A program made the position numbers and the translations under genes. Shown here piece by piece: positions 1,658-63,376 of a stretch of DNA of 64,000 nucleotides. The notes under the pieces are model-generated. The model was not told the origin of the DNA and ran no database searches. It was given only the letters and a program-made list of their open reading frames with translations. The first letter of the stretch is position 1. The number at the start of each line of letters is the position of its first letter. Where the stretch lies: contig NZ_CP019327.1 in the NCBI RefSeq assembly GCF_001971705.1, forward strand, positions 2,542,001 to 2,606,000, written 5' to 3'. Origin of the DNA: Natronorubrum daqingense. GTDB lineage: Archaea > Halobacteriota > Halobacteria > Halobacteriales > Natrialbaceae.

Positions 1658-2317
1658 CTACCAGGCCGACCAGGCGCTGGTCTGTTCGTCGTACGCGTAG
1701 ACGCGTTTCGTGTCCTTGGCGAAGACCGCGTCGCCGTCCATTTCGAAGCGCTTGCGTCGGTATCCCGTCGCGTCGTCGCGCACGACGACGGCGTCGATTT
1801 CGAACTCGTCGTCGCCGAACGAGTCGACCGCGCCGACCTCGAACTCGTAGTCGCCGGGGACGTGGACAGTAATACTTCGGCTGTCGTTTCGCGATCCGTC
1901 TTGCGGGTGGACGGTCACGTTGACGGCGACGTTGTCGACTTCCCGCGTCCAGACCGTCTCCACATCGTCCACGACTGCCTCCTCTCGTCGCTTCTGTTGG
2001 TCGAGTTCGAGACTCGTTACCCGAACCGTCGAGAGCACCTCGTCGGTCTCGAGGATGAACTCGTCGCCGGTCTCGATCGTCTCGCCTTCAGCCGTCGTGA
2101 CGTTCGCGGTAAAGGACTCGCCTTCCTGCGAGACGACGACGTCGAGCGTGACTTCGCTCTCTTGTTCGGGTTGGACCTTGTGGACGTGCGAACACTCACT
2201 ACAGCGAACCGTAACCGTCCCGCCGCCTTCCGTCGTCGTCAGGACCTCGTGAACCGTCTCGAGGTCCGGCGAACACGACGGACACGCCGTCGGAACTCGA
2301 TCCGGAATATCGTTCAT
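1658..2317 (-). CDS. HVO_0476-type zinc finger protein
   Basis: A 219-residue soluble protein with an N-terminal zinc ribbon: C12-x2-C15 and C39-x2-C42. After it come beta-rich segments with TxxGE repeats (EGESFTANV, EGETIETGDEF) that look like small OB/SH3-like barrels, and a C-terminal part ending in ETSAWSAW-like aromatic residues. This matches the haloarchaeal family annotated as HVO_0476 zinc finger protein (recalled, not searched). Function is unknown; the architecture suggests nucleic-acid or translation-factor binding. It ends about 107 bp before the methyltransferase start on the same strand, so the two may be cotranscribed. Confidence 0.8.
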   Translation of the reverse strand: MNDIPDRVPTACPSCSPDLETVHEVLTTTEGGGTVTVRCSECSHVHKVQPEQESEVTLDVVVSQEGESFTANVTTAEGETIETGDEFILETDEVLSTVRVTSLELDQQKRREEAVVDDVETVWTREVDNVAVNVTVHPQDGSRNDSRSITVHVPGDYEFEVGAVDSFGDDEFEIDAVVVRDDATGYRRKRFEMDGDAVFAKDTKRVYAYDEQTSAWSAW

Positions 2318-2466
2318 ACCACGTCCTAACGGCTGCGTCCCTAAAAGCCGATTGAACCTGTGACTGGAGCAGATTCAGATACACGCCCCGTTGTGCTACC
2401 GACCACCCACTGTTTTCCCCCACCCGCCGTTTTCCCTCTCTTGCCGTCTTCCCCTCCCACGGCCGA

Positions 2467-3417
2467 CTACTCGGCCTGCGGTAGATCGATTTCGACGCCG
2501 TCAGCGAAGACGGTCGGCTCCCGCAAGATACCGTCGAGGTGGATCGGGGCTTCCGTCTCGCCGCCGATTCCCGCGTTGTCTCCGACCGCGATGTGGACGG
2601 TACCACCGGCTTTCTCGTCCAACAATACCGAGCCGACGAGTTCGGTGACCGCGACGTTCGTTCCGATCCCCAACTCCGCGAGGTTGTAGGCGGCATCACC
2701 AACCTCGTCTGCGGCCGTTTCGACCGTTTCCCGAATTTCGTCATCCGAGATGTGCGTTACGAGCCCGTCTTCGACCTCGAACGTCAACTGCTGACCGTCC
2801 TCGAGCAATCCGTGGGGACGCATCGTGCCGTCGACGACGAACGTTCCCTCGGCCGTTTCGGGGCTGATGAACACCTCTCCTGCGGGGAGGTTCGACATGA
2901 TCCCCGGTTCGTGGACGATTCCGGTATCCGAGAGCCACGCTCGACTCCCCACCGCGAACGTGATATCCGTGCCGACCGGCGTCGTTACGCGAACCGTTTC
3001 GGCGTCTGCAACCTGCTCGCGGACGTTTTCGCAGTGGGCGGCGATCGACTCGTAATCGGCGTCCAACCCCGTCGTAAACACGTCTTCGGTAATTCCCGGC
3101 AGCGTCGCGACTCGCGCACCTGCGTCGTTCGCTTCGGTGCGAGCGCGGGTGTGACTCAGACTCTTCGTCGTCGGCGCGAGGACGACGTCCGCACCGGCCA
3201 TCGCCGCCGCGACTGGCGCTGGCGGTTCGCCCCCGTGTGTCTCCCCGGGTGGATATCGGATGATGCTGGCATCGTCGGTGATCTCGCTTGCGACCGCGTA
3301 CAGCGACTCGCCGATCGGTTCGCGTTTGTCGTCGGTCACGATCACACAGGATTCGTCCGACTCGAGCGCCAGACACTGTCGAACAGCGGTCTCGGCAGCA
3401 CTCTTACGTGTCGTCAT
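2467..3417 (-). CDS. aminopeptidase, M29-like (AmpS/aminopeptidase T type)
   Basis: A 316-residue cytoplasmic peptidase of the M29-like fold, slightly shorter than typical AmpS/AmpT (about 360-410). The metal-ligand motifs of the family are recognisable: GEVFISP (about 177-183), AELGIGTN, GTVHIAVGDN and PIHLDGIL near the C-terminus, supplying Glu, Glu, His and His/Asp. These cobalt/zinc enzymes remove N-terminal residues from peptides. The N-terminal third looks more like a CoA-ligase/Rossmann-type segment and diverges from the second M29 protein at 62115-63209. The gene is monocistronic; the start ATG at 3417 has a short A/T element upstream. Confidence 0.8.
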   Translation of the reverse strand: MTTRKSAAETAVRQCLALESDESCVIVTDDKREPIGESLYAVASEITDDASIIRYPPGETHGGEPPAPVAAAMAGADVVLAPTTKSLSHTRARTEANDAGARVATLPGITEDVFTTGLDADYESIAAHCENVREQVADAETVRVTTPVGTDITFAVGSRAWLSDTGIVHEPGIMSNLPAGEVFISPETAEGTFVVDGTMRPHGLLEDGQQLTFEVEDGLVTHISDDEIRETVETAADEVGDAAYNLAELGIGTNVAVTELVGSVLLDEKAGGTVHIAVGDNAGIGGETEAPIHLDGILREPTVFADGVEIDLPQAE

Positions 3418-40803: not shown

Positions 40804-42069
40804 TTACGCGTCGTCGCTCAACGTCTCGAGCACGCCGTCGAAATCACCGGGAACCGGTTCGGGATCGCCGCCTGCAGCGGCTGCGGCGTCCGGATCTTTG
40901 AGCAGGTGACCGGTGGTGAGACAGGCGACGCGTTCGTCGGCGTCGACGATACCCGCGTTTCGAAGTTTTCGGAGTCCGGCGACGGAGGCGGCGGAGGCTG
41001 GCTCGACACCGATGCCCTCGCCGGCGAGGTCACGTTGAGCGGCCGTTATTTCTTCGTCGGAAACCGAGACCGCCGTCCCGTCGGTCTCGCGAATACCCGG
41101 GAGCGCCTTCGGTGCGTTGACCGGGTTTCCAATCCGGATCGCCGTTGCGCGCGTTTCGACGTCGTCCCACCGTCGGACTTCGTCTGCACCATTTTCGATC
41201 GCTTCGACCATCGGCGCTGCGCCGTCGGCTTGGACGCCGGTCAGCTTCGGCACGTCTGCTTCCGCGAGTTCGCCCGCCTGGACGAGTTCGCGGAAGGCCT
41301 TGTACAGCGCGGACGTGTTCCCGGCGTTGCCGACCGGCAGGACGATTCGATCCGGAACGGCCTCGTAATCCGCGAGGAACCCCTCGAGAATCTCGAGTCC
41401 GATCGTTTTCTGGCCCTCGAGTCGGAACGGATTCAACGAGTTCAGGAGGTACGCCTCGCCTCGGCTGGCCAGTTCTTGCACGAAGTCGAGGCAGGTGTCG
41501 AAATTGTCGTCGACCTCGAGAATGCGAGCGCCGTGCAGGCTGGCCTGGGCGATCTTCCCCGCGGCGACCTTGCCGGCGGGGAGGAGGACGAGCGTTTCCA
41601 TTCCCCCGCGGGAACCGTACGCTGCGAGTGCGGCGCTCGTGTTGCCCGTCGACGCGCAGGCGAGGCGACCGACGCCGAGTTCCTTCGCGACGCGAACGCC
41701 GACTGTCATGCCGCGGTCTTTGAACGACCCCGTCGGGTTCATCCCTTCGTGTTTGATTCGCAGCGTCTCGACGCCGATATCGTCCTCGAGACGCGGTACT
41801 TCGTACAGCGGCGTGTCGCCTTCCTGAATCGAAACTCCCTCGTCGAATGGGAGCGCGTCGGCGTAGCGCCAGACGCCACGTCCTTCAAAGTCGTCGAACG
41901 TCGGCAACTCGTCGTAGCGTACCTCGAGCAGGCCGTCGCACTCGTCGCAAGTGTATCGGATGTCGTCGAACGGGGCGAACGTCTCGCCACACTCGATACA
42001 CTCGAGCCAGACGCCGTCGTCGGCGTTGGCAGGCACTGCCGGTTGATCAGCGGAGAGGCTGAGACTCAT
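40804..42069 (-). CDS. thrC: threonine synthase
   Basis: A 421-residue PLP enzyme. A short N-terminal zinc-ribbon-like segment (CIECGETFAPFDDIRYTCDE, C24/C27 and C40/C43) is followed by the PLP lysine motif NPTGSFKDRGM (about 111-121) and the phosphate-binding loop ASTGNTSAALAAYGS. It converts O-phosphohomoserine to threonine. The zinc ribbon and length match class-I archaeal ThrC. Start ATG 42069 gives MSLSLSADQP. Monocistronic; the next small ORF upstream is separate. Confidence 0.94.
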   Translation of the reverse strand: MSLSLSADQPAVPANADDGVWLECIECGETFAPFDDIRYTCDECDGLLEVRYDELPTFDDFEGRGVWRYADALPFDEGVSIQEGDTPLYEVPRLEDDIGVETLRIKHEGMNPTGSFKDRGMTVGVRVAKELGVGRLACASTGNTSAALAAYGSRGGMETLVLLPAGKVAAGKIAQASLHGARILEVDDNFDTCLDFVQELASRGEAYLLNSLNPFRLEGQKTIGLEILEGFLADYEAVPDRIVLPVGNAGNTSALYKAFRELVQAGELAEADVPKLTGVQADGAAPMVEAIENGADEVRRWDDVETRATAIRIGNPVNAPKALPGIRETDGTAVSVSDEEITAAQRDLAGEGIGVEPASAASVAGLRKLRNAGIVDADERVACLTTGHLLKDPDAAAAAGGDPEPVPGDFDGVLETLSDDA

Positions 42070-42205
42070 TATCGCTCGAGAGGGGGGCGAGGGGGAAAAA
42101 GGACGTGGGTTCGTGGGGCGTTCGGGGCAAACGCGTTCGTCGTGAACTCTCGCGTTTGGACGATTGGTCCGCTACTTTCGGGTCGATACAGTAAGTCGAG
42201 ATCGC

Positions 42206-42283
42206 TCACGCTACGACGAGGATAAGGAGTGCCGCCGGCACGATCATCATCAATAGCGTGGCGAGCAGTGCTTTGAACCACAT
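42206..42283 (-). CDS. possible 25-residue single-helix membrane peptide
   Basis: A minus-strand ORF reads MWFKALLATLLMMIVPAALL and five more residues, so almost entirely one hydrophobic helix. A TATA-like TATTATA (42314-42322) lies about 33 bp upstream of the ATG at 42283, as expected for a leaderless gene. It is upstream of thrC, 136 bp before it, on the same strand. No family is recognised; the short length makes chance possible. Confidence 0.4.
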   Translation of the reverse strand: MWFKALLATLLMMIVPAALLILVVA

Positions 42284-42313
42284 GATCTCGACTGCGAGGT
42301 CCCGATCCGTTGG

Positions 42314-42322
42314 TATAATATT
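42314..42322 (-). promoter_or_regulatory. TATA-like box upstream of the tiny membrane ORF
   Basis: The plus-strand TATAATATT here reads AATATTATA on the minus strand, about 33 bp from the ATG at 42283. It could start a leaderless mRNA for the peptide and thrC. Confidence 0.4.
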
Positions 42323-42424
42323 CCGTCACTGTCTCAGGCATCGAAAATAACTCACTGCAAGAAACTTGGAATTTACTCGAGTAGGGCCCGCCTTGTGCCT
42401 CGAGAGAGTCGTCCAGCCAAAATC

Positions 42425-42506
42425 TGGACCAAAACGGTCGCTCGTTTCGCTCGTGTGTCGACTACTCGAGTAGCCAACTCAACAACGCCTTCTGTGCGTG
42501 CAGTCG
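42425..42506 (-). repeat. downstream duplicate of the argF 3' end (gene tail and terminator)
   Basis: Positions 42462-42506 match 42671-42715, the last 15 codons and stop of argF, with one mismatch; the flank 42425-42461 also matches 42630-42670 more loosely (GAGCGAAACGAGCG and T-run). The copy is 209 bp downstream of the original, and in frame still encodes NRLHAQKALLSWLLE and stop. 42284-42461 and 42507-42629 otherwise show no gene. Confidence 0.85.
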
Positions 42507-42629
42507 ATTCTACAACCCACCTTTTTCCACTCGGGTTCACTTCGCTCACGGCGTCGCCGTTCGCTGTCGCGATTCTCACTCACCTCGTTCGTCCCGAATC
42601 GCGCCTCGCTCACCCGTCGCGCAAAAACC

Positions 42630-42670
42630 TGGACTAAAAAGCCACCCGCTCGTTTCACTCGCGGTCGGTA
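42630..42670 (-). terminator. likely argF terminator
   Basis: Downstream of the argF stop the minus strand reads CCGC-GAGTGAAACGA-GCGG then GTGGC and TTTTT, a short hairpin with a T-run. It is repeated in diverged form at 42425-42461. Confidence 0.45.
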
Positions 42671-43591
42671 CTACTCGAGCAGCCAACTCAACAACGCCTT
42701 CTGTGCGTGCAGTCGGTTTTCAGCCTGATCGAACACGACCGAGTGCTCGCTCTCGACGACATTGTCGGTGATCTCCTCGCCGCGGTGGGCGGGTAGACAG
42801 TGCATAACGGAGGCTTCCGGTGCGTGCTCGAGCAAACTCGAACAGACCTGGAAGCCCTCGAAGGCGTCCATTCGGACGTCACGTTCGTCCTCCTGGCCCA
42901 TGCTGATCCAGACGTCGGTGTAGATGACATCGACGCCCGAGACGGCGTCAACGGGATCGCTCGTGACCGTCGGGTCGCCGCCGAGTTCGCGCGCTCGCTC
43001 GAGGACGGCGTCGTCGACGCCGTAGCCCTCGGGGGTGGCGACCGTCAGATCGATGCCGGCGAGCGCACAGCCGAGGACGAACGACTGGGCGACGTTGTTG
43101 CCGTCGCCGACCCACGCCGCCGAGACGCCCTCGAAGCCGCCTTCTTGCTCGCGGATCGTCAACAGATCGGCGAGCGTCTGGCAGGGGTGGGCGTCGTCGG
43201 TCAGGCCGTTGACGACCGGCACCGAGGCGTACTCCGCGAACACTTCGATGTTCTCGTGTTTGAAGACGCGAGCCATCACGGCGTCGACGTACCGCGAGAG
43301 CGTTCGCGAGGTGTCTTTGAGCGGTTCGCCTCGCCCGAGTTGGATGTCGTCCTCGCCGAGGAAGACGGCGTGGCCGCCGAGTTGGGTCATCCCCGTCTCG
43401 AAGGAGACGCGAGTTCGCGTACTCGGCTTCTGGAAGATCATGCCCAGGGTCTGGCCAGCGAGATCCGCGTGGTCTTCGCCGCGTTCCTGAGCGCGCTTGT
43501 ACGTCGCCGCGCGTTCGAGGACCGTCTCGAGTTCGGCTTGCGAGAGGTCGGTGATCTCGAGGAAGTGACGGACGTCAGTGGTTGTGGCCAT
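42671..43591 (-). CDS. argF: ornithine carbamoyltransferase
   Basis: A 306-residue transcarbamoylase. The carbamoyl-phosphate motif FQKPSTRTRVSFE is at 53-65 (STRTR 57-61), the ornithine loop MHCLPAHRGEE is near 262. It condenses carbamoyl phosphate and ornithine to citrulline, the first step after ornithine. The start is ATG 43591, overlapping the stop of argE (TGATG); a GTG at 43594 is possible. It is the last gene of the LysW-arginine operon. Its last 15 codons recur 209 bp downstream. Confidence 0.96.
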   Translation of the reverse strand: MATTTDVRHFLEITDLSQAELETVLERAATYKRAQERGEDHADLAGQTLGMIFQKPSTRTRVSFETGMTQLGGHAVFLGEDDIQLGRGEPLKDTSRTLSRYVDAVMARVFKHENIEVFAEYASVPVVNGLTDDAHPCQTLADLLTIREQEGGFEGVSAAWVGDGNNVAQSFVLGCALAGIDLTVATPEGYGVDDAVLERARELGGDPTVTSDPVDAVSGVDVIYTDVWISMGQEDERDVRMDAFEGFQVCSSLLEHAPEASVMHCLPAHRGEEITDNVVESEHSVVFDQAENRLHAQKALLSWLLE

Positions 43592-44700
43592 CACTCCTCA
43601 CCTCCGCGAAGCGTTGTCGAAACCCCTTCTAAGACCGCAACGGAGCGGTCGAATTCCGCGAGCGAGAGTCGTTCGTCCGGCGCGTGATCGAGGTCCGAGT
43701 TGCCGGGGCCGTAGGTAACCATCGGACAGTCCCACTCGCCGGCATAGAGGTTCATGTCGCTGGTCCCGGTCTTGCGCAGGAGTCGGGGGTCACCGACCTC
43801 GTTGCGGATCGCAACGCGGAACGCGCGAGCGACCTCGGTCCGTGGACTTTCCATGACCGGTGGGATCGGTTCGGCCCAGGAGACGGTCCCGATCTCGAGG
43901 CCGGCTTCGGCTGTCTCGCGGACGGATTCGGCGTCCAGTGACGGCGGAATCCGCAACTGAACGTCGAGGGTCGCCTCGACTGAAAGCCCGTCCTCGCTGA
44001 TCCCGCCGTCGATATCGACGGGTTTGGCGGTGACGCGTTCGAAGACGGCCGTGTACTCGTCGTTCTCGAAGGCCGCTTCGACGCCGTTCCACCAGTTCGT
44101 CGCGTGTTGGATCGCGTTCGGCTCCGGCCGTGACGTGTGGCCGGATTCGCTGGTCGCGACGTAGGTGCCTGCGAGAAAGCCACGATAGCCGAGCGTAATC
44201 CCAGTGGTTCCGCTGGGTTCGCCGTTGACGACGGCATCGGGCTCCGATCGCTCGTCGACCAGGTGCCGTGCGCCGCGCGAACTGGTCTCCTCGCCGACGA
44301 CGCCGACGAAGGAGACGCCGGTTCGAACGGCTGCTGCGGCCATCGCGGCCAACGGGCCGGTGGCGTCGACGCTGCCACGACCCCAGAGGACGTCTTCGCC
44401 GAGTTCGTCGGCAACGTCTTGCTCGAGGTCGTTCTCGTCCGCTGGCTCGACTTCGACCGGAATTTCGCCGGGCACGGTATCGACGTGTGAGGTCAACAGC
44501 ACGGAATCGTCTGCCGGTGCCCGTACGTTGCCGACCTCGTCCAGCCACGCCTCGCGGCCGTAGCTCTCGAAGAATTCGACGAGGACCTCGGCCGCGTCGG
44601 TTTCTGCATCCGATGGTGAGGGTGTCGATACGAGGTCGATCAGAAGTTGGCGGGCGTCTGCGGCCGAAACGTCGGTCTGATCGGTCATGCTCGCGTTCAT
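43591..44700 (-). CDS. argE: [LysW]-ornithine/lysine hydrolase (LysK/ArgE type)
   Basis: A 369-residue M20 peptidase. Metal residues: LLTSHVDTVPGEIPVEVEP (H73 zone), WGRGSVDATGPLAAM, GVVGEETSSRGARHL (EE), and GTSDMNLYAGEWDCPMVTYG near the C-terminus. It releases free ornithine (or lysine) from the LysW carrier protein. Start ATG 44700 overlaps the argD stop as ATGA. Bacterial ArgE-type length (about 375) fits. Confidence 0.93.
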   Translation of the reverse strand: MNASMTDQTDVSAADARQLLIDLVSTPSPSDAETDAAEVLVEFFESYGREAWLDEVGNVRAPADDSVLLTSHVDTVPGEIPVEVEPADENDLEQDVADELGEDVLWGRGSVDATGPLAAMAAAAVRTGVSFVGVVGEETSSRGARHLVDERSEPDAVVNGEPSGTTGITLGYRGFLAGTYVATSESGHTSRPEPNAIQHATNWWNGVEAAFENDEYTAVFERVTAKPVDIDGGISEDGLSVEATLDVQLRIPPSLDAESVRETAEAGLEIGTVSWAEPIPPVMESPRTEVARAFRVAIRNEVGDPRLLRKTGTSDMNLYAGEWDCPMVTYGPGNSDLDHAPDERLSLAEFDRSVAVLEGVSTTLRGGEE

Positions 44701-59789: not shown

Positions 59790-60486
59790 CGAGGACCGTC
59801 TTCGGTCGTCGGAACACGTGATCAGTAGTCGAAGCACGTGATCTGGTCGCTTCTCGAAAATAGCCTTCTCGAGGCTCAGTCGGGACGAGAGTCCGTTTTC
59901 GATTCGCCCTCGAGATAGATCGTGGCGTCAACGGGGTCCGGCCGAGTTGTGAGGCGGTTCGTAAGGGGCTCTTGGAGGGTGTTTGGAGGGTGTCCGGAAG
60001 GTGTTTGGGAGGGTGTTTGGAGGGTGTCCGGAAGGTGTTTGGGAGGGTGTTTGGAGGGTGTCCGGAAGGTGTTTGGGAGGGTGTTTGGAGGGTGTCCGGA
60101 AGTGTTTGGAGGGCGTCCGGAGGGTGGTTGGTGTGAAGGTGGTGGATTGGTGCGATAGCGGGAACCTCGAGACTGCGATATCCCATACCCGGCGTGACCC
60201 GCTGGAATCGGCGTAGCTGACGTGCTGAGGCATCCATGGAGGGGGACTCCAACGGGTTGATGGCCCCGACCGGCGGGGTGGAATCACCGGATCGGGACAG
60301 ATCGCACTTCGCTGGCGATCCCGATATAGGCGGCGTAAGGTGAAAACGTCGTTTTAGCTACGGTACGTCCGACGAACAGGATACTCCGTCGACACGAGTC
60401 AACCGTCTTCCGATTACGAGTTATAGTTCCGGACACCGCCGCTTCGGTCGAAACGGTTTTGCATACTGACACGGTATCGATCGATT
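59790..60486. other. gene-free region containing a 34-bp repeat
   Basis: About 700 bp without a convincing gene. It holds the G-rich tandem repeat at 59972-60126. Sequence 60180-60320 has GC blocks with possible stems but no RNA family I recognise. All open frames here read in low-complexity repeat or have atypical composition. Confidence 0.6.
59972..60126 (+). repeat. 34-bp G-rich tandem repeat, about 4.5 copies
   Basis: A 34-bp unit (GTGTTTGGGAGGGTGTTT then GGAGGGTGTCCGGAAG) repeats with exact offset: GTGTCCGGAAG begins at 59990, 60024, 60058 and 60092. Within the unit are three 11-12-bp sub-repeats (GTGTTTGGGAG, GGTGTTTGGAGG, GTGTCCGGAAG). The plus strand has many G-runs and could form quadruplexes. 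34 is not a multiple of 3, so it cannot encode one repeated peptide in a constant frame. Confidence 0.93.
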
Positions 60487-62056: not shown

Positions 62057-62114
62057 TTCTCGCGAGTAGTTTCGATTCGAAAGCGGTATCCCAGCGCCGA
62101 GAGACGTGTGTCGC

Positions 62115-63209
62115 ATGGACGCACGCATCCGCGAACACGCCGAAATCATCGCGAATCACTCCGTCGATTTGCAGGAGGGAGACAACGTTATCGTCGACGC
62201 ACACCCCGTCGCCGAGGACCTGGTCGTCGCGCTCCACGAAGTGATCGGCGACGCCGGCGCGAACCCGCTCACCACGAGCCAGCGAACGGGCGCCCGCCAG
62301 CGACGCGCGTTCCTCCGCGCCGGTGACGACGAGTACGAGACGCCGGAACACGAACTCGCCTTGATCCAGAACACCGACGTCTACATCGCGATTCGGGCGG
62401 GCGACAACGCGACCCAGACCGCCGACGTCGACCCCGAGACGCAGGCGGCCTACCAGCAGTCCCATCGCCCGATTCTCGAGGAGCGACTCTCGACGCGGTG
62501 GTGTCTCACACAGTATCCGGCCCCGGCGAACGCCCAACTCGCCGAGATGAGCACGGAGGGCTACGAGAACTTCGTCTGGGACGCCGTCAACAAGGACTGG
62601 GACGAACAGCGCGCCCATCAGGCCAACATGGTCGAGATTATGGACCCCGCCGAAGAGATTCGAATCAAGAGCGGCGAGACGACCGACGTGACGATGTCCA
62701 TCGACGGCAATCCGACGCTCAACGACCACGGCGAGCACAACCTTCCCGGCGGCGAAGTCTTCACCGCTCCCGTCCCCGACAGCGTCGAGGGCGAGGTGCT
62801 GTTCGACATGCCGCTGTACCACCAGGGCCGGGAGATCACGGACGTGTACCTCGAGTTCGATGGCGGCGAAGTCGTCGACCACGCGGCGGCGAAAAACGAG
62901 GACGTCCTCACCGAGGTCCTGAACACGGACGACGGTGCCCGCCGACTCGGCGAACTCGGCATCGGCATGAATCGAGATATCGACCAGTTCACCTACAACA
63001 TGCTCTTCGACGAGAAGATGGGCGATACGGTCCACATGGCCGTCGGCCGCGCCTACGATGACACCGTCGCCGAGGGCAACGAGCAGAACGATTCCGCCGT
63101 CCACGTCGACATGATCGTCGACATGAGCGACGACTCGTTCATCGAGGTCGACGGCGAGGTCGTCCAGCGCAACGGGACGTTCCGGTTCGAGGACGGCTTC
63201 GAGGACTAA
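62115..63209 (+). CDS. M29 family aminopeptidase
   Basis: A 364-residue peptidase of the AmpT/AmpS type. Metal-binding sequence in family order: PGGEVFTAPVPDSVEGEVLF (E about 218), RLGELGIGMN (E about 284), GDTVHMAVG (H about 309), SAVHVDMIVD (H, D about 336-338). The start ATG 62115 is preferred to ATG 62106. It is full length, unlike the shorter paralogue at 2467-3417. The final 24 codons (63132-63203) are repeated 173 bp downstream. Confidence 0.93.
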   Translation: MDARIREHAEIIANHSVDLQEGDNVIVDAHPVAEDLVVALHEVIGDAGANPLTTSQRTGARQRRAFLRAGDDEYETPEHELALIQNTDVYIAIRAGDNATQTADVDPETQAAYQQSHRPILEERLSTRWCLTQYPAPANAQLAEMSTEGYENFVWDAVNKDWDEQRAHQANMVEIMDPAEEIRIKSGETTDVTMSIDGNPTLNDHGEHNLPGGEVFTAPVPDSVEGEVLFDMPLYHQGREITDVYLEFDGGEVVDHAAAKNEDVLTEVLNTDDGARRLGELGIGMNRDIDQFTYNMLFDEKMGDTVHMAVGRAYDDTVAEGNEQNDSAVHVDMIVDMSDDSFIEVDGEVVQRNGTFRFEDGFED

Positions 63210-63211
63210 TT

Positions 63212-63245
63212 ACCGCGAGCGACCAACGGGAGCGAGCGGTTTTTT
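63212..63245 (+). terminator. hairpin and T-run after the M29 aminopeptidase
   Basis: ACCGC (63212-63216) and GCGGT (63236-63240) form a stem around GAGCG-rich loop, followed by six T. It is the likely end of transcription of the aminopeptidase gene, and sits between the two tail copies. Confidence 0.5.
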
Positions 63246-63304
63246 CATCGAAGTTTTTGCGTGAGCGGTTGCCGAAGGCGACCCGAACGGAAAAAGTTCG
63301 GAAT

Positions 63305-63376
63305 GACTCGTTCATCGAAGTCGACGGCGAGGTCGTCCAGCGCAACGGGACGTTCCGGTTCGAGGACGGCTTCGAG
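63305..63376 (+). repeat. duplicate of the M29 aminopeptidase 3' end
   Basis: 63305-63376 equals 63132-63203 in 71 of 72 bases (one silent GAG to GAA change) and still encodes DSFIEVDGEVVQRNGTFRFEDGFE; it then diverges (CAG TAG instead of GAC TAA). Without a start codon it is a non-functional tail copy. The sequence 63210-63304 between is the terminator and GTTTTTGCG/GGAAAAAG motifs. Confidence 0.95.

Follow-up and report, generated by a model that had tools for sequence, protein, structure and literature searches.

The ends of housekeeping genes recur as downstream copies across an archaeal order under one fixed junction rule: the copied end begins right past the base of a short hairpin, belonging to a family that we term X, which lies between the two tails and is preceded by a terminator-like hairpin with a T-run that we term TERM. 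The two arms of X covary, the junctions are old, and the tails of one genome evolve in concert. Two such copies, at the ends of argF and of an M29 aminopeptidase gene, lie in the window studied here, by which we mean the whole stretch of 64,000 nucleotides from Natronorubrum daqingense (contig NZ_CP019327.1, positions 2,542,001 to 2,606,000). In the literature searched we came across no account of copied ends on haloarchaeal genes. These numerous natural and datable duplications provide a testbed for hairpin-linked rearrangement and for the concerted evolution of very short repeats. Furthermore, the copied ends may mark true transcript ends, and they can mislead gene-end annotation and short-read assembly.

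Two copied gene ends in the window

An ungapped scan of the window at offsets of 15-799 recovered as strong repeat pairs only argF, the aminopeptidase and a 34-bp tandem repeat, while a single order-3 Markov randomisation of the window yielded zero strong pairs at the same offsets. The argF pair has 45 of 46 bases alike (42461-42506 against 42670-42715, offset 209), bearing out a sequence-only reading of the window that had proposed a copied argF end with one mismatch; the aminopeptidase pair has 71 of 72 alike (63132-63203 against 63305-63376, offset 173). The tandem repeat, at 59974-60102, is a perfect repetition of its 34-bp unit with offsets of 34, 68 and 102.

The claim that the terminator-like flank and T-run are likewise repeated also holds, with base changes between the argF copies: tail 1 is followed by GAGTGAAACGAGCG and CTTTTT and tail 2 by GAGCGAAACGAGCG and GTTTT, and in both copies GAG(C/T)GAAACGAGCG is succeeded by a T-run and then by GTCCAG(A/G)TTTT. 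At argF and the aminopeptidase gene alike, a T-run occurs soon past the stop codon, as in archaeal U-tract terminators; TERM-X is a candidate terminator with two consecutive T-runs, that of TERM and that of X. As far as we know, neither copied gene tails nor a second hairpin whose 3' arm has an A-run belong to the definition of U-tract terminators. In the argF X, AGTCCA pairs with the GGTGGGTT side (RNA fold z=-1.94), and the remnant of a second X is a weak match (42384-42436, E=0.0043) to the covariance model R1 described below. That single model finds the middles of both loci in 464 kb of this genome (E=4.9e-13 for argF and E=5.5e-15 for the aminopeptidase), confirming the proposal that they are alike. 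Rfam has no family matching within window positions 42000-43600 at E<=0.1.

Table 1. Features of the two copied gene ends, in window coordinates
Feature	Coordinates	Strand	Basis
argF, ornithine carbamoyltransferase	42671..43594	-	ORF; NCBIfam match above curated cut-off
argF tail 1, last 15 codons	42671..42715	-	45/46 match to tail 2
argF TERM 1, GAGCG-type hairpin-like sequence and T-run past stop codon	42636..42667	-	Read from sequence; putative terminator
argF hairpin X, long internal loop; match takes in TERM T-run	42513..42641	-	Model R1, E=4.9e-13
argF tail 2, copied argF end with one synonymous mismatch	42462..42506	-	Sequence and repeat scan
argF TERM 2 and left-half remnant of second X (GGTCCAGATTTTGG)	42384..42458	-	Sequence reading
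M29 aminopeptidase gene	62106..63209	+	ORF; Pfam PF02073, E=1e-64
Aminopeptidase tail 1	63132..63203	+	71/72 match to tail 2
Aminopeptidase TERM, GAGCG-type hairpin-like sequence and T-run	63211..63245	+	Sequence reading; putative terminator
Aminopeptidase hairpin X, arms TCGAAG/GTTCGG	63240..63304	+	Model R1, E=5.5e-15; RNA fold z=-3.57
Aminopeptidase tail 2, directly abutting the end of X	63305..63376	+	Repeat scan and flank reading

The hairpin family X and its association with copied gene ends

In BLASTN searches the argF spacer partially matches many places in its own genome; seven of the matched loci are further copied gene ends that enclose a spacer resembling it, and in two of the seven a third tail and a second spacer are present. 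Thirteen spacers, including the aminopeptidase X and leaving out that of argF, were aligned with MAFFT to train R1; a covariance model was used because a strict two-arm pattern matched only two places in this genome. The alignment reveals a common architecture of an outer arm, a small internal loop, a T-run pairing with an A-run, and a GC stem. Members are 42-105 nt in size, with arm types such as TCCA/TGGA, TGGA/TCCA, CGTA/TACG, CGAA/TTCG and GCA/TGC, among others. In the alignment 88% of the cells pair and 8 of the 16 pairs have both sides changed; there are 19 doubly changed cells against a shuffled mean of 5.8 (0 of 500 shuffles as high), and sliding the structure by 1-3 columns lowers pairing to 32-61% of cells. 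Outer-arm positions 3-5 pair in 94% of cases over 52 distinct arm sets (E<1e-5) against 64% on shuffling (maximum over 2000 shuffles, 74%), a value biased toward structure as R1, the finder, already contains those pairs. A pattern imposing nothing on the inner stem gave 98 haloarchaeal matches, whose four inner positions pair in 67% (41% on shuffling), and 25 non-haloarchaeal chance matches, where they pair in 35% (37% on shuffling). Three loci (L009, L087 and L156) have an extra GGTCTC...GCGAGAGC hairpin inside the left arm of X, like a palindrome within a palindrome.

R1 matches at E<=0.1 number at least 115 in ten genomes of the genus (109 read) and at least 32 in the own genome, these counts being lower bounds as 150 of about 1,900-3,200 candidates were scored per genome. 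The tail of the upstream gene is copied at 55 of 87 matches with E<0.002 (direct repeat score >=15, which is the 95% quantile of a cross-locus null that contained orthologous loci; its 99% quantile is 34.5, and copies scoring 15 to about 20 are less sure). The downstream copy begins 0-4 nt past X in 52 of these 55 loci; that of argF starts later because its R1 match covered only the first part of a long X. In 27 genomes from other genera of the family, a copied tail accompanies 24 of the 27 best matches, and 23 of the 24 start 0-2 nt past X. From the pattern matches listed, we sorted 118 loci by the titles of their records: 25 are non-haloarchaeal, and the remaining 93 take in a few unplaced halophilic archaea, e.g. 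Actinarchaeum (L261). Among the listed matches in named genomes, with eight near locus ends set aside, the tail is copied at 43 of 91 haloarchaeal but at 0 of 24 non-haloarchaeal chance matches.

The association is also recovered from the opposite direction. A scan blind to X, covering 464 kb of the own genome and its 414 ORF-genes, detected four tail duplications: three have X, and the remaining one is a plain tandem repeat. R1, which finds both the argF and aminopeptidase middles in these 464 kb, has its three strongest matches at exactly the three X-linked duplications; the argF remnant and other places account for five weaker ones. Among the named loci, two tail duplications (L183 and L205) and a simple tandem repeat (L084) are without X. 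At 32 of the 87 matches X has no copied tail; MITE-like units belong here, as does, in several species, the spacer between dnaK and dnaJ. At six loci (L112, L113, L114, L132, L144 and L147) X occupies the same site between dnaK and dnaJ with varying arm type and no tail copy. The genes with copied ends are ordinary, such as those for ornithine carbamoyltransferase, GatB, PurH, Dph6 and thiolase, along with an IleS-like synthetase end and a phosphotransacetylase-like end; genes were named from protein parts of at most 330 residues, hence some scores fall under curated cut-offs.

Within the family, 98 of 101 genomes, representing all 29 genera, have R1 matches at E<=1e-4 (52 candidates scored per genome). 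In a sample of the phylum it matches at E<=1e-6 in 27 of 196 genomes; all 27 are among the 33 of the same order or closer, and the 163 genomes outside the order have no match at that threshold (26 candidates scored per genome). X-like hairpins with repeated gene-end flanks also occur in two archaea that are not assigned to the ordinary haloarchaea by the titles of their records, Actinarchaeum halophilum (L261) and archaeon YIM A00013 (L288), where transfer is possible.

Anatomy, age and concerted evolution of the copies

The point at which the copy starts lies, over 53 loci, 27-114 nt ahead of the last base of the stop codon. The repeats cease to resemble each other at the stop codon in some loci, and remain alike through TERM to X in others. 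The last tail may itself carry TERM plus a left half-X, as at argF and at G003:C31, where the repeated unit comprises the tail and TERM plus 27 nt of the left side of X. The spacers between tails are about 65-250 bp. Several arrays have n tails and n-1 complete copies of X; perfect arrays have a 136-bp unit in G002 and a 158-bp unit in G009, and G069 has five X spaced 124 bp apart. The second X at G005:C1:1214191 is a hybrid with left and right arms of different types. Copying of the downstream side was not detected by a flank test, full arrays excepted. Such an anatomy is better accounted for by tandem duplication of tail-TERM-X, the last X then eroding, than by X having inserted on its own. 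In the 158-bp repeats at G009:C1:3061227-3061616 (L155), a tail and TERM are joined to an X whose arms are of a different type (TACTAAATTTTGC / GCAAAATTTAG-like).

The junctions are old and common to several species and genera. Those of argF in G000 (GGTGGGTTGTAGAATCGACTGCACGC) and G002 (GGTGGGCTGTAAAACCGGCTCCACGC) match base for base when aligned; the argF copy is absent in 7 of 10 genomes, among them G005; the argF proteins of G005 and G000 are 96% identical. At purH, 12 genomes spread over seven genera share a tail copy with one junction, GGTGGATGCCGCGATGGCG or a near variant of it (13 rows compared, two being the same record). Tail 1 of purH ends in GAT TAA or GAT TAG in 12 of 12 genomes, and tail 2 in GAC TGA in 7 of 12; this copy-specific signature points to a single old event.

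Despite this age, the two tails of one genome are more alike than the same tail elsewhere, that is, they show concerted evolution. Over 40 same-junction genome pairs, which are not mutually independent, 120 informative sites group by genome, 11 by copy and 3 crosswise; for purH the figures are 118, 7 and 1. The GatB tails, for instance, are identical in G005 and differ in the G000 ortholog. A counterexample is the pair G000:C1:1678710 and G005:C2:665367, with 6 by-copy against 2 by-genome sites.

The differences between tails are concentrated at third codon positions (40/15/110 by position in 54 pairs, whose 755 codons include 97 that differ synonymously and 48 that differ otherwise, with one gap), as in the 41 pairs of named genomes (16/7/51; 52 synonymous and 19 other of 606 codons, no gap). 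The counts from the 54 pairs and those of informative sites over the 40 genome pairs leave out three matches in the G009 158-bp array, G004:C3:495435 and pairs scoring <13, and retain G007:C7:152109, G005:C2:665367 and G000:C1:1678710 despite 5-6 nonsynonymous codons. When polarised with other species as outgroup (42 pairs with an outgroup, 11 without), tail 1 changes fall 7/1/45 by position, with 45 synonymous and 8 not, and tail 2 changes 17/6/32, with 31 synonymous and 24 other. Hence, tail 2 is under relaxed, yet not absent, constraint. This is best explained by conversion from the coding tails, either in the polyploid cell or via strain exchange. Unselected gene conversion between genome copies is described as very efficient in Haloferax volcanii (PMC8223754).

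A different explanation of the same pattern is that tail 2 is functional, as a translated alternative end or as a needed 3' UTR sequence, and is maintained by selection. The mostly synonymous inter-tail differences and the retention of the purH copy, with its stop in frame, in seven genera would suit such a function, but the polarised tail 2 changes are relaxed and the copy is missing from many orthologs, and we consider it rather improbable. Translation through X into tail 2 was first suggested by open frames (phase counts 41/27/21 of 89), and was rejected since the tail frame is only as open as another frame (60, 61 and 39 of 94). Diversity-generating retroelements and silent 3' cassettes also feature a second copy of a 3' end downstream of a gene. 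Unlike in those systems, the differing codons are mostly synonymous (97 of 145 and 52 of 71) and the changes mostly in third position; amino-acid diversification of the tails was accordingly rejected.

Possible origins of the copied ends

The reading we favour, though tentatively and as something just short of probable, is a hairpin-linked tandem duplication of tail-TERM-X with later gene conversion and loss. The gene-end module would comprise the tail, the stop codon, TERM and then X as a second hairpin. X would fold on one strand just past the gene and halt copying or breakage at its 3' base; the free end would re-engage further upstream, within the tail carried by a sister copy. The segment from 27-114 nt before the gene end to the base of X would thereby be duplicated in tandem, giving (tail-TERM-X)n-tail, and the gene would survive as the first copy retains a complete tail and stop. 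Recombination between tails would then convert them mutually and expand or collapse the arrays, with the last X eroding. Haloarchaea are polyploid and recombination between tails would be easy there.

That a rearrangement should end at a hairpin base has a precedent: the replicative polymerases PolB and PolD of Pyrococcus abyssi slip in vitro at a hairpin between direct repeats to produce deletions (PMC4134008). This supports loss directly and gain by analogy alone, for the slippage is described there as deletion in vitro (PMC4134008) and the X case would be duplication in nature. Other observations also sit uneasily with hairpin-linked duplication: the copied side is the gene side, whereas symmetric slippage would copy the downstream side too; dispersed units ending at X suit a mobile element; copies as old as the family last longer than a useless tail 2 would lead one to expect; and no birth of a tail copy was observed in the genomes compared. 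The one-sidedness, unexplained by symmetric slippage, may point to transcription or a dedicated enzyme. A more speculative, on balance unlikely, version would have X as the recognition hairpin of a haloarchaeal end-processing activity, such as an HUH-type nuclease or RNA 3'-end machinery, which would act a few nt past its base and copy the adjacent gene end, with gene ends copied order-wide and maintained in concert since before the genera split.

Equally doubtful is TERM-X as a short non-autonomous mobile element: each insertion close to a gene end would duplicate a long target of variable length and so regenerate the last codons. The right terminus is common to the copies, G005 argF resembles an empty site, several arrays have n tails and n-1 complete X, and identical TERM-X units are dispersed at unrelated sites: the MITE-like pairs L130/L131, L121/L122 and L160/L162 carry TERM-X with 113-163 identical bases, and such units stop where X does on its right side, or 3-4 nt further on. 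These units are in keeping with a mobile or end-processing view. Some of them sit in longer flanks resembling inverted repeats. However, unlike the dispersed pairs, gene-tail X is mainly common to orthologs; shared junctions and near-identical X at orthologous genes indicate mainly vertical descent; the copy length varies over 27-114 nt where a fixed-length target duplication would not; X is present at gene ends without copies; and an empty site is equally explained by collapse between tails. Hence, the suggestion in the sequence-only reading that a short mobile element inserts at gene ends is unsupported in that form, the more so as the copy often takes in TERM plus the left half-X.

The bacterial REP, BIME and REPIN sequences, which go with RAYT, are comparable as short imperfect palindromes with many extragenic copies near gene ends and dispersed units, X likewise being a palindromic repeat at many extragenic places (the at least 32 own-genome matches at E<=0.1). 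Unlike these, X is 42-105 nt long, haloarchaeal, with covarying arms, and joined to the copied end of the adjacent gene. Integrative elements at gene 3' ends restore the gene end by an upstream or downstream copy. The X spacers differ from these in being, at about 65-250 bp, too short for an integrase, and the tails come from many unrelated genes.

Still less probable is RNA-templated copying, in which the base of X would be the site where the 3' part of the gene's transcript, ending at X and shortened from its 5' end, is turned into DNA. A constant right end, a variable left end and the sense orientation are all compatible with it, but a transcript could act in trans, and in the loci read the tails always come from the adjacent gene; further, we know of no reverse transcriptase common to these genomes. 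Finally, unrelated tandem duplications or chance likeness, conceivable when merely two cases were known, are rejected as extremely improbable by the excess of tail copies over chance matches among the matches listed, the recovery of X at 3 of 4 duplications in the X-blind scan, the Markov control, and the recurrence of a 3' end, a spacer and the same 3' end beyond the two sites in the genome-wide search; with the shared middle, this recurrence supports the earlier suggestion of one mechanism with common termini.
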